Source of the DNA: Candidatus Methylacidiphilales bacterium
Lineage (GTDB): Bacteria > Verrucomicrobiota > Verrucomicrobiia > Methylacidiphilales > CAZTYG01
Direction of reading: 5' to 3'
DNA: 64,000 nucleotides
NCBI GenBank assembly: GCA_033875315.1
Contig: JANRJG010000006.1
Location: 1-64,000 of the forward strand
Part shown: piece by piece, positions 26,525 to 30,465 of the stretch
Layout: the number at the start of each line of letters is the position of its first letter
Numbering within the stretch: the stretch's first letter is position 1
Position numbers and translations under genes: made by a program
The notes under the pieces: generated by a model
What the model was told of the DNA's origin: nothing
The model's database searches: none
Seen by the model: only the letters and a program-made list of their open reading frames with translations

Positions 26525-27250
26525 TCAAATTTTTCGGGTAAATCGTTCCGAAACCGCGTCCCAAGCGATGATGTTGAAGAGGGCGGAGAGGTAATCGGCG
26601 CGGCGGTTTTGATAGCGGAGGTAGTAGGCGTGTTCCCAGACGTCGAGTCCGAGAAGGGGCTGGTTGCCGTGCATGAGGGGGTTGTCCTGATTGGGGGTGG
26701 GTTCGATGACCAGTTTTCCTTCTTTGGAGAGAGAAAGCCAGGCCCAGCCACTGCCGAAGACCTTCAGGGCGGTTTCGGTAAGGGATTTTTTCAGGCCGTC
26801 CATGCCGCCGAGATCGCGGTCGATGGCTTTGACCAAGGCCGGGGAGGGCGATGCGGGCTTGGCGGAAAGGCTGGTCCAGAAGAGGGTGTGGTTGACATGG
26901 CCTCCGGCGTTGTTGCGTACCAGCGTGCGGAAGGCTTCCGGGACCTGGTCGAGTTTTTGGATCAAATCCACCGGGTTGGTGGTGGGGAGGGCGTTGGGTT
27001 GTTCCTTGACCAGTTTGTTGAGATTGTTGACGTAGGCTCCGTGGTGCTTGTCGTGGTGGATGCCCATGGTCTGGGTGTCGATGTGGGGTTCGAGCGCGGC
27101 GGGTGCGTAGGGCAGTGGAGGGAGGGAAAAGGGACCGACGACAGGTGCGGGTGCGGCGGCGGTGGAGGAAGTTTGGGCGTTCAAGGCGCCGGGAAGGGCG
27201 CTGGCGGCGCTGGCGAGCGCGAGGGTTTTGAGGGCGGTTCTACGGTTCAT
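26525..27250 (-). CDS. Superoxide dismutase (Mn/Fe), Tat-exported
   Basis: 241 aa. An N-terminal twin-arginine signal (MNRRTALKTLALASAASALP) precedes a complete Fe/Mn-SOD. Metal ligands are visible: His in MGIHHDKHHGAYV, His in GGHVNHTLFW, and Asp plus His in LLGLDVWEHAYYLRYQNRRA. GGHVNHTLFW and NQDNPLM suit a manganese enzyme. Export means it removes superoxide outside the cytoplasm. The ATG at 27250 gives the signal peptide; the frame before it is unrelated. Confidence 0.93.
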   Translation of the reverse strand: MNRRTALKTLALASAASALPGALNAQTSSTAAAPAPVVGPFSLPPLPYAPAALEPHIDTQTMGIHHDKHHGAYVNNLNKLVKEQPNALPTTNPVDLIQKLDQVPEAFRTLVRNNAGGHVNHTLFWTSLSAKPASPSPALVKAIDRDLGGMDGLKKSLTETALKVFGSGWAWLSLSKEGKLVIEPTPNQDNPLMHGNQPLLGLDVWEHAYYLRYQNRRADYLSALFNIIAWDAVSERFTRKI

Positions 27251-27392
27251 GGGATGGTCTTGGGTTGAGGGTGCGGTTTTTGAATGCAGGGGCATTTTAG
27301 CAACCGGGTGGCAAATCACAAGGCCGGTTCCGATGGCATGATGGCTGAGTCGCACCTTGCGGGCGGTTCAAGAGGAAAGAAATACGACCCCG

Positions 27393-27719
27393 CTATGCTT
27401 TGCGGACGAAGCAGGCTTTAAGGCCGATGGCCACGCCGTCGATTTTGCAGGAGATTTCATGGTCACCTTCGACGAGGAGTATGGGTTTTGATTTGGTGCC
27501 GCCTTTCAAGACCTGGGAAGAACCCTTGAGGGGCAGATCCTTGATCAGGGCAACGATGTCGCCATTGGCCAGGATGTTGCCGTGGGCGTCTTTGACCACC
27601 CGGGTGGGCTCGGGCTCGGGTTCGCGGGGCCATTCGTGTCCGCAGGTGAGGCACTCCCAATGGCCGGGGTGGGAAATGACGTCGGGCATGCTGCATTCGG
27701 GACAGGTGGGAGTACTCAT
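27393..27719 (-). CDS. PhnA/YjdM-family zinc-ribbon protein
   Basis: 108 aa. An N-terminal zinc ribbon (CPEC then CLTCGHEW) is followed by the PhnA domain: VVKDAHGNILANGDIVALIK, DLPLKGSSQVLKGGTK and LVEGDHEISCKIDG. The family was named for alkylphosphonate genes but its function is unsettled. ATG at 27719 overlaps the stop of the upstream TPR gene as ATGA, so the two are co-expressed. Confidence 0.9.
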   Translation of the reverse strand: MSTPTCPECSMPDVISHPGHWECLTCGHEWPREPEPEPTRVVKDAHGNILANGDIVALIKDLPLKGSSQVLKGGTKSKPILLVEGDHEISCKIDGVAIGLKACFVRKA

Positions 27720-29428
27720 GGGGTGTCTGGGGGAAGTTGTTGGATTTTTTCTCGAACGGAGGTGGGATTCTCGCTCTTTTCCAGGGCCCGGGTCCAGCAT
27801 TCCCGCGCGCGGGCGGGATGGCCGAGTTTCAGCCAGGCATCGCCGAGATGTTCGAGCACGACGGGATCGCCGGGCATTTTCTTCTCGGCACGGGCGAGAT
27901 AGGCCCGGGCGTGCCGGTATCGGCCCTGTTGGTAGTGGACCCAACCCAGGCTGTCAAGGTAAGCGCCGTTGGTGGGCTGCAATTCAACCGCCCGCAGGAT
28001 GAGGGCGCGGGCCTCCTCGAGGCGTTCGCCCCGTTCAGCCAGGGAGTAGCCGAGGAAGTTCAGGGCTTCATGGTCGTCCGGATTCATGTCCAGACAGCGG
28101 CGGAGGGCGAGTTCCATGGTGACCCGTTCAGCGGCTTTTTCCGCACAGACGGCTTTGCGGAAGTAGAACTCCCGGTTGAGCAACGAATCCAGCCCGCCGA
28201 GGGCGAGCGTTTCCGTTTTGACGAAGGCTTCAAGGGAGGCCGGGTAGTCCCCCTGGGCAAATAGCACCATGGCGCGGAGGTAGGGGAAGGCGGGCAGGTT
28301 GGGGAAGCGACGCTGGGCGTCATCCAATGTGGCCAGGCAGGCGGAATGTTCGCCGGCCTTGGTCTGGGCCTCGGCAAGGGCAAAGTAAACGCGGGGTTCT
28401 GGAGGAGCGAAAATCACGGCCTGTTGGTAGAACTCAGAGGCTTTGGCCCATTGGCCGAGTTTGGCGTGCAATTCGCCGATGGCAGGGAGGAGTTGACGCT
28501 GGGAGGGATCGCGGTCGTAGAGCCATTCGAAGTAGGGAAGGGCCTCCGCGTATTGCTGGAGTTTGAGGTGGCACTCGCCGATGCGCAGGCGGAGCAAGGG
28601 CAGGTTGGGGCGGCGTTTTTCTACCACTGAGAATTCGGCCAGGGCCTCTCGGATGTTTCCGGCCTGGAAGGCGGCCTGACCAGAGGCGAGCCGCAAGGAA
28701 AGGTTGTCCGGATCGAGGGAGGAAGCCTGTTTGAGAAGAGGTGCGGTTTCGCGGGCGGCTTCGGAAGGCAGGGTTTTGCCGTCGGAAGGGAGGACTTGGA
28801 TCCACAAGAGGGCTTGGCGGGCGTAGTAATCGGCGCGGTCGGTTTTGATTTTCTGGGCTTCCTGAAAGAGCTGACGCAATCGTGCGGGTTTGTCTTCGGC
28901 CAGGGCGACAGAGGCGAGGGTGGCGTAATTGACCACCAGGAGAGGGTTGAGGGTGCGTGATTTTTCCGCCCAAAGGGAGGCCTCCCGGAGCTGATTGAGG
29001 TGGACGTGCACGAGGGCACGGAGGGCCATCAATTCCGGGGACTGGGGCTGGCGGGCGAGCGAGGCCGCGACGGATTCGAGAGCTTCCGTGGGGCGGTTGG
29101 ATTTGAGAAGCGAGAGAGCGACACGGGCTTGGGCGGGGATGTATTGGGGGTCGTCCTGGACCGCTTGGCGGAAACGGGCGAGGGCCTCGGTCGCCCGTCC
29201 CTGTTGTTCCAATTGGAGGCCGAGGGCGAAAGCGGCCGCGGCGGCGGCCCGTTGGGGACGGCCCGCAGCTGCCGTGGGGGTGGGATTTTTGTAGTTTTCG
29301 AGGTCTTCCTCGATCTCCGGGAGTGGATTGTGAACCTGGGGGGGAAGGGATTGTCCACGAAGCAGCAGCGGGGTGAGTGTGAACACGCACCCCGCAGCAA
29401 GCAGTGAGGAGAGAGACCGGGAGCGCAC
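27716..29428 (-). CDS. Exported TPR-repeat protein, 570 aa
   Basis: Signal peptide MRSRSLSSLLAAGCVFTLTP ends near RGQS. A Pro-rich linker follows, then about a dozen TPR units spanning residues ~65-550 (GRATEALARFRQAVQDDPQY; GRYRHARAYLARAEKKMPGD). The start is GTG at 29428; it gives the complete signal peptide, and no ATG lies nearby. It is a likely periplasmic scaffold; the partner is not evident. Confidence 0.85.
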   Translation of the reverse strand: MRSRSLSSLLAAGCVFTLTPLLLRGQSLPPQVHNPLPEIEEDLENYKNPTPTAAAGRPQRAAAAAAFALGLQLEQQGRATEALARFRQAVQDDPQYIPAQARVALSLLKSNRPTEALESVAASLARQPQSPELMALRALVHVHLNQLREASLWAEKSRTLNPLLVVNYATLASVALAEDKPARLRQLFQEAQKIKTDRADYYARQALLWIQVLPSDGKTLPSEAARETAPLLKQASSLDPDNLSLRLASGQAAFQAGNIREALAEFSVVEKRRPNLPLLRLRIGECHLKLQQYAEALPYFEWLYDRDPSQRQLLPAIGELHAKLGQWAKASEFYQQAVIFAPPEPRVYFALAEAQTKAGEHSACLATLDDAQRRFPNLPAFPYLRAMVLFAQGDYPASLEAFVKTETLALGGLDSLLNREFYFRKAVCAEKAAERVTMELALRRCLDMNPDDHEALNFLGYSLAERGERLEEARALILRAVELQPTNGAYLDSLGWVHYQQGRYRHARAYLARAEKKMPGDPVVLEHLGDAWLKLGHPARARECWTRALEKSENPTSVREKIQQLPPDTP

Positions 29429-29445
29429 CCGGACAACCTAGAAAG

Positions 29446-29550
29446 CTAGGACTTGTAGCGCAACCGCTTCTTGTGGCGATTCAGACGGCGACGTTTGCGC
29501 CGTTTGTGCTTGGCTATCTTCTCTTTGCGCTTCTTTTTGATCGAACCCAT
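29446..29550 (-). CDS. 34-residue mS38/COX24 (AURKAIP1)-like basic micro-protein
   Basis: ATG at 29550, TAG at 29446-29448. The product has 34 residues, about 60% Lys/Arg, beginning MGSIKKKRKEKIAKHKRRKR and containing LNRHKKRLR. This matches the AURKAIP1/COX24 domain, whose mitochondrial member mS38 is a small-subunit ribosomal protein and whose bacterial members are short ribosome-associated peptides. It sits alone between hisG (36 bp upstream) and the TPR gene (17 bp downstream). At this length it is easily missed by gene finders. No clear Shine-Dalgarno is visible. Confidence 0.8.
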   Translation of the reverse strand: MGSIKKKRKEKIAKHKRRKRRRLNRHKKRLRYKS

Positions 29551-29586
29551 AGTATTGAGAGGCTGGACAGATTATGGACCTTTGTT

Positions 29587-30465
29587 TCAGTAGACAACTT
29601 TATTCAGCGGATATTCAATGATTCCTTCAGCACCCAATTCTTTCAATTGGGGGATGATTTCCCGGACCACGACCTCATCGATGATGGTTTCGATGGCAAC
29701 CCAATTGCCGTTGGCCAGGGGGGCGACGGTGGGATTGCGCAGGGCGGGCAGGGCTTGGAGGAGTTTTTCCAGCCGTTTGGTGGGGACATTCATCTTCAGG
29801 CCGACCTTGTCCCGGGCGTTGAGGGCTCCTTCGAGGAGGAGGGCGAGCGTGGAGAACTTGCGCCGGGCGGCCGGTTTCTTCCAAACGCCATGGTTCACCA
29901 CCAATTGTGGATAGGATTCCAAGAGGGTGTCCACGATGCGCAACTTGTTGGCCCGGAGCGAACTGCCGGTTTCGGTGATATCGACAATCGCGTCGACCAG
30001 CTCGGGCACCTTGACCTCGGTGGCGCCCCAGGAGAATTCGACGTGGGCCTTGATCTTGTGGCGGGCGAGGTAGTCCTTGGTGATATTGACCGCCTCGGTG
30101 GCGATGCGCTTGCCCTGGAGGTGGGCGGGTTTGGTGATCTTGGAGTTTTCCGGGACCACCAGAACCCAGCGGGCGGGCGAAGAGGTGGCTTTGTTGAAGG
30201 GGAGGTCCTTGACGACCTGGACCTTGGAGCGCGACTCATGCACCCAATCACGCCCGGTGAGACCGGCATCGAGGAAGCCTTCCTCGACGTATTTGGCAAT
30301 TTCCTGGGCACGCAAAAGGCGGATTTCCAGTTCGGGGTCGTTGATGGAGGGTTTGTAGGACCGGGACGAAACCGTGATATGGAAGCCAGCGCTCTTGAAT
30401 AGAGCGAGGGTGGCTTCTTGCAGGCTGCCCTTGGGCAGACCCAGCCGTAACGGTTTCGAGCTCAT
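29587..30465 (-). CDS. hisG: ATP phosphoribosyltransferase HisG, long form
   Basis: 292 aa. First step of histidine synthesis, ATP + PRPP to phosphoribosyl-ATP. [20 protein letters not shown] is the N-terminal signature; [13 protein letters not shown] and [19 protein letters not shown] form the substrate and PRPP sites. The length and the C-terminal ~75 residues ([20 protein letters not shown]) show the long form with the regulatory ACT-like domain, so feedback by histidine is expected. No other his gene is in the window. Confidence 0.95.

Follow-up and report, generated by a model that had tools for sequence, protein, structure and literature searches.

A small basic COX24_C protein conserved across Verrucomicrobiota and its probable identity as the ribosomal protein bS22

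The window, by which we mean the whole stretch of 64,000 nucleotides analysed here, contains a short complete frame on the minus strand that starts with ATG at 29550, runs for 34 codons and ends with TAG at 29446. Minus-strand translation of 29446-29550 gives MGSIKKKRKEKIAKHKRRKRRRLNRHKKRLRYKS, followed by the TAG codon. The initial annotation had placed a small peptide at exactly these coordinates and had left the strand unstated; the coordinates held, and the strand is minus. The plus-strand reading of the same interval, an unrelated hydrophobic sequence, was rejected. The frame lies between hisG and a TPR-repeat gene, and all three are on the minus strand:

27716..29428, minus strand: TPR-repeat gene, 570 aa, GTG start, downstream neighbour, 17 nt from bS22 (protein-family match)
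29446..29550, minus strand: bS22/mS38-like (COX24_C) gene, 34 aa (frame, conservation, profile matches)
29551..29586, minus strand: gap of 36 nt between the hisG stop and the bS22 ATG (sequence and scan)
29587..30465, minus strand: hisG, ATP phosphoribosyltransferase, 292 aa, upstream neighbour (protein-family matches)

A scan of the 36-nt gap (29551..29586) detected no Shine-Dalgarno-like core directly 5' of the bS22 ATG. The promoter and terminator scan returned two promoter-like sites, none of them between hisG and bS22, and no terminators; in the source genome the small gene may be co-transcribed with hisG. No RNA element in the window matched Rfam at gathering scores. The source genome (G000; 42 contigs, 95.65% complete) contained exactly one match to the peptide. 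A plus-strand ORF at 29404-30402, which overlaps the bS22 locus and is antisense to hisG, was treated as spurious. Elsewhere in the window, 26525-27355 on the minus strand encodes an Fe/Mn superoxide dismutase; its TAT-signal match was weak (E=0.0061) and did not reach the cut-off, and the enzyme is possibly exported.

The peptide is rich in lysine and arginine (59% K/R over 34 aa) and contains both of the motifs, KIAKHKRRKR and LNRHKKRL, from which the initial annotation had recognised an AURKAIP1/COX24 protein, known as mS38 in mitochondria. The HMM search that it had proposed was run, and the only Pfam family matched by the window peptide was COX24_C (PF08213), over positions 1-29 of 33, with E=1.4e-4 and 22.1 bits against a cut-off of 23. 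All 45 distinct relatives matched the same family at E<=1, the best at 1.9e-6. When seven relatives were scored singly, two passed the PF08213 cut-off (L059 with 27.6 and L050 with 26.4) and five fell below it, and it was passed by both copies from viral contigs. The NCBIfam equivalog model for bS22, NF047430, was matched at E<=1 by 28/45 relatives (best 0.0018); the window peptide reached 11.9 bits against a cut-off of 34, and on this sequence score the protein is not filed under the model. Among 14 control genomes, COX24_C found matches in Corynebacterium glutamicum, M. jannaschii and S. acidocaldarius, one of the three above the cut-off, and the Bacteroides ihuae genome was not among these three. 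The matches in the archaeal controls M. jannaschii and S. acidocaldarius, at E<=1, may be aL41 or may be chance.

Searches of the PDB pointed to chains of ribosomes. With the single sequence the best match was 7jil chain 5 (E=0.0026), from what we take to be the Flavobacterium johnsoniae ribosome, and it was followed by 8fmw chain V, the Borrelia bS22 (0.045), the mS38 of 8a22 (0.24) and 9i5v, an AURKAIP1/COX24 domain-containing protein (0.28). With the alignment of relatives the values were 4.4e-5 for 7jil, 0.0012 for 9i5v, 0.014 for 8a22, 0.02 for the mS38 of 6xyw, 0.028 for 8fmw, 0.083 for the mS38 of 9evs and 2.2 for the mS38 of 5aj4; no actinobacterial bS22 chain was among the matches listed for this search. 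The PDB gives 7jil chain 5 two names, S22 and L38. We follow PMC10618245 and PMC10085706 in naming it, since the available parts of both papers place F. johnsoniae bS22 in the pocket formed by h2, h27, h44 and h45. The COX24_C and 7jil matches thus bear out the AURKAIP1/COX24/mS38 assignment by sequence. The family name mS38/COX24-like is right, and the precise bacterial name is bS22, a protein already known from the ribosomes of other phyla.

Because these peptides are more than half Lys/Arg, we employed a shuffle control with a profile of five non-verrucomicrobial bS22/mS38 chains. The window peptide scored 29.2 bits with this profile, and 20,000 shuffled versions of the peptide reached 16.0 at most, so that 0/20,000 attained the real value; with the composition correction switched off the scores were 57.2 and 48.3, respectively. 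Among 1,333 stop-to-stop frames of the window (>=20 aa) the bS22 frame ranked first with 28.4 bits and the next frame reached 9.1. It is the order of the residues, and not their composition, that yields the profile score, and the shuffles rule out a composition artefact.

We also compared the printed parts of chains 7jil, 9i5v and 8fmw with NF047430 and COX24_C at E<=10 and obtained no match; these stretches are 24-29 aa long, two are several residues short of the full chain, and HMMER filters drop weak matches. Since the stretches of these three bS22-type chains, all of them placed in ribosomes, fail to match the model, the PF08213 cut-off does not define the family. It also follows that bS22 of the Bacteroidota/Borrelia type may escape automatic annotation. 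The verrucomicrobial proteins match both COX24_C and the bS22 chains, two groups that the tested models separate, and are therefore usefully placed between the COX24_C branch and that of Bacteroidota/Borrelia; this intermediate position is one of similarity and not of a tree, which sequences this short cannot resolve. The same shortness bears on whether the likeness could be convergent, with an unrelated K/R-rich helix resembling bS22 and performing the same function without true homology to mS38, the kind of relation that has been suggested between eL41 and mS38. Very short basic helices hold little phylogenetic information, and single mS38 chains are matched with weak E-values (0.014 to 2.2), but the K..HKR.KR...NRHKK pattern stands in gap-free register with 7jil, 9i5v and 8fmw, the score depends on residue order, and COX24_C and bS22 chains are matched alike, so that we regard convergence as very improbable and prefer homology.

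The peptide was detected at E<=1 in 95/98 genomes of relatives, including 59/59 of those with >=90% completeness and <=5% contamination. Two of the 95 (G033 and G051) were discounted, leaving 93/98, because their matches were partial, with E around 0.57, and were not confirmed by profile. In the phylum-wide profile search of Verrucomicrobiota genomes >=90% complete it was present in 283/288, as a single copy in each. The 5/288 genomes with no convincing copy were drafts 91-96% complete and still gave none at E<=10; incomplete assembly can explain these five, and real losses are possible. When ten genomes with no convincing match were searched again at E<=10, the result was one partial match of 16 residues inside a 111-aa frame, which was judged to be chance. 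The peptide was held by 68/69 of the loci that were read, the remaining one being the 16S locus, and all 68/68 copies had an ATG start and opened with MGS or MGN. Removal of a duplicate (L068) and of a copy cut by a contig end (L069) left 66 copies that represent 45 distinct proteins of 28-35 aa with 52-61% K/R, the alignment of which has 11 invariant columns.

Selection on the frame was evident at the nucleotide level. The pN/pS ratio was 0.20 (mean pN 0.15, mean pS 0.76; 2,145 pairs, first 28 codons), and among the loci encoding the identical protein (L001, L002, L003) two relatives had 13/14 and 14/16 of their base differences from the window at third codon positions. A chance open frame, or an artefact of composition, had to be considered for a short K/R-rich frame under the usual gene-calling limits and with a peptide below the curated cut-offs. 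The presence in 283/288 genomes, the pN/pS of 0.20, the ATG in 68/68 copies and the 0/20,000 shuffles make such an origin barely credible, and conservation refutes the chance frame. Absence of the frame from relatives had been named at the outset as what would count against the peptide; instead the frame is conserved in relatives and across the phylum under purifying selection, and the observation of a real gene, conserved above chance, is confirmed. The data show a gene that is conserved, present as a single copy and kept by purifying selection in almost all of the Verrucomicrobiota sampled. Within the phylum it has all three marks of a core protein, being near-universal, single copy and subject to purifying selection.

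The neighbourhood was less constant than the gene itself. The hisG gene was found upstream on the same strand in 107/158 loci, and in 106/155 of the loci with at least 400 nt of upstream sequence, where both counts include loci fetched twice and the latter also includes two viral contigs. The distance between the ends of the hisG and bS22 matches varied from 5 to 274 nt. A TPR match of low identity lay downstream of bS22 in 88/158 loci. At loci with no hisG, the gene that precedes bS22 varies and in several cases looks peroxiredoxin-like by eye, as it often does in soil members. As a partner of a ribosomal protein gene, hisG is unexpected and widespread. The linkage raises the question of whether a conserved basic RNA-binding COX24_C micro-peptide could work elsewhere than in the mature ribosome, for instance during rRNA processing or subunit assembly or on hisG mRNA, rather than as a stoichiometric 30S protein. 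In addition to the frequent hisG linkage, such a role would recall that COX24 was first described in yeast in connection with COX1 mRNA splicing and translation, according to the available part of PMC6582356. However, 49/155 loci keep the gene with no hisG upstream, which makes a hisG-specific role unlikely, and every one of the nearest relatives with a solved structure is a ribosomal chain; we consider the extra-ribosomal role improbable. A peptide found almost everywhere, with a linkage to hisG that is frequent but dispensable, is more in keeping with a general role than with one specific to histidine.

We therefore return to the ribosome. The gene very probably encodes bS22, a small-subunit ribosomal protein that is the counterpart of the bS22 of Bacteroidota and Borrelia and homologous to the C-terminal domain of mS38; its location in the ribosome we infer by analogy with these proteins. 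A K/R-rich helix of about 30 residues with 55-65% basic residues, standing alone or at the C-terminus, is characteristic of the family, and the window protein, with 34 aa and 59% K/R, was predicted by AlphaFold2 to form one straight helix over residues 2-31 (mean pLDDT 88.8), whereas ribosome-bound relatives are described as bent. In the source-genome 16S rRNA (L031) the motifs tested around h2, h27, h44 and h45 and the anti-SD showed at most one difference each, a result that does not discriminate. In the solved ribosomes described in the available part of PMC10618245, bS22 sits in a pocket of 16S helices h2, h27, h44 and h45 and contacts H68 of 23S rRNA, a contact given as H67 in the part of PMC10085706 available to us. 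Yeast mS38, as far as the accessible text of PMC6582356 goes, stabilises h44, makes an inter-subunit bridge and is required for efficient mitoribosome biogenesis and preferentially for the initiation of COX1/2/3. If the window protein behaves like its solved relatives, its basic helix would lie in the h2/h27/h44/h45 pocket near the decoding region, its Lys and Arg side chains would reach over to 23S rRNA at H67/H68, and the helix would brace h44 and add an inter-subunit contact. The ribosomes of E. coli function without bS22 (PMC10085706, available part).

The occurrence of bS22-like copies was not restricted to cellular genomes. In a scan of viral contigs, 2/200 pattern matches were confirmed with the alignment:

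L161:1713-1817: bS22-like copy, 34 aa, on IMG/VR contig UViG_3300009790_004215
L162:731-835: bS22-like copy, 34 aa, on IMG/VR contig UViG_3300012920_005951

The two copies are 91% identical to each other and, over 29 residues, up to 90% (L161) and 86% (L162) identical to cellular copies. Each starts 9 nt downstream of an ORF, which in L161 has endolysin matches and in L162 is 75% identical to the L161 ORF. L161 also carries ParB-like and SSB-like (DUF3127) proteins and L162 a DNA primase/helicase, and no hisG was present at either locus. Because both contigs are only short fragments, we assign them to phages by their genes and their listing in IMG/VR; from the similarity of the peptide only, we infer a verrucomicrobial host. 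Of 80 viral loci that encode a related endolysin, these two contigs alone carried the peptide; it was missing from the 78 others and from 10/10 other related viral records searched whole. A tblastn search of the L161 copy against 50,697 GenBank phage records gave no match at E<=10, a weak test for a low-complexity query of 34 aa. Fourteen virus-encoded ribosomal proteins are reported in PMC6375957, the main text of which mentions neither 'bS22' nor 'S22', and PMC13157829 does not mention 'bS22'. The two phage copies thus suggest a virus-encoded ribosomal protein not named in the main text of PMC6375957.

A Shine-Dalgarno (SD)-like core precedes bS22 in 25/153 leaders, compared with 7/153 in a control stretch (the set excludes all leaders of less than 60 nt and, by manual choice, five loci, namely two viral contigs and three presumed duplicates). 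For the long ORFs of the window the numbers were 7/33 and 4/33, and because these ORFs were chosen crudely, with one or more spurious ones among them, the comparison is a lead only. It has been speculated that bS22/mS38 helps mRNAs that have no SD (PMC6582356, available part). The accessible portion of PMC10783764 lists Akkermansia and another verrucomicrobial genome, next to Bacteroidota, among SD-scarce organisms with an intact anti-SD, so that the idea of bS22 supporting SD-independent initiation could be tested in a second SD-scarce phylum. In the same portion Spirochaetia are listed at 46, which we take as the percentage of SD-bearing genes; on that reading bS22 does not go strictly hand in hand with SD scarcity. 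Combining these strands, we put forward a tentative joint reading, which as a whole we hold to be doubtful: bS22 would be a core verrucomicrobial ribosomal protein that helps ribosomes with an intact anti-SD to start on SD-less mRNAs, as speculated for mS38 and for mycobacterial bS22; some phages of these bacteria would bring a bS22 of their own, with which to replace or supplement the host protein during infection and bias the ribosomes; and the sequence found here would also link the bS22 of Bacteroidota and Borrelia to mitochondrial COX24/mS38.

With this gene, Verrucomicrobiota would, almost without exception, join the bacterial phyla that carry an mS38 counterpart. Their addition makes it harder to regard mS38 as a mitochondrial invention, and its distribution among bacteria becomes a phylogenetic question. 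The verrucomicrobial sequences, scoring against COX24_C as well as against bS22 of the Bacteroidota/Borrelia type, would also make for a better search profile for missing members. A literature search that lay mostly outside subscription papers and preprints found no paper mentioning bS22 together with Verrucomicrobiota and none joining a phage-encoded ribosomal protein with COX24.

Among known systems, bS22 has been found in Actinobacteria, Bacteroidota and Borrelia, and the window protein is therefore one more member of an established family; that bacterial ribosomes can contain such a protein was already known. The F. johnsoniae bS22 (7jil chain 5; 30 aa compared with 34) aligns with it gap-free over residues 2-29 and shares the HKRxKR...NRHKK core. 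It differs in its phylum, in its N-terminus (MPSGKKRKRH, where the window protein has MGSIKKKRKE), in having no counterpart of the C-terminal LRYK tail and in that its printed stretch, unlike the window protein, does not match COX24_C. The Borrelia burgdorferi bS22 (8fmw chain V), an unannotated basic helix of 28 aa, has the same pattern (E=0.045) and differs in its reported GUG start, its shorter C-terminus and its phylum; according to the available part of PMC10618245 it was detected first as density and afterwards by a translated genome search. The actinobacterial bS22 is represented by NF047430, an equivalog model to which more than half of the relatives show similarity and outside which the window peptide falls. 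The archaeal and eukaryotic aL41/eL41 is a shorter, unbent single helix compared with bS22 and, in the accessible parts of PMC10618245 and PMC10085706, occupies the same pocket. The C-terminal domain of mitochondrial mS38/AURKAIP1/COX24 (PF08213) is matched by profile, with the mS38 chains of 8a22, 6xyw and 9evs recovered in the alignment search; in most mS38 proteins the domain is accompanied by an N-terminal extension and a targeting signal, whereas the window protein consists of the bare domain.
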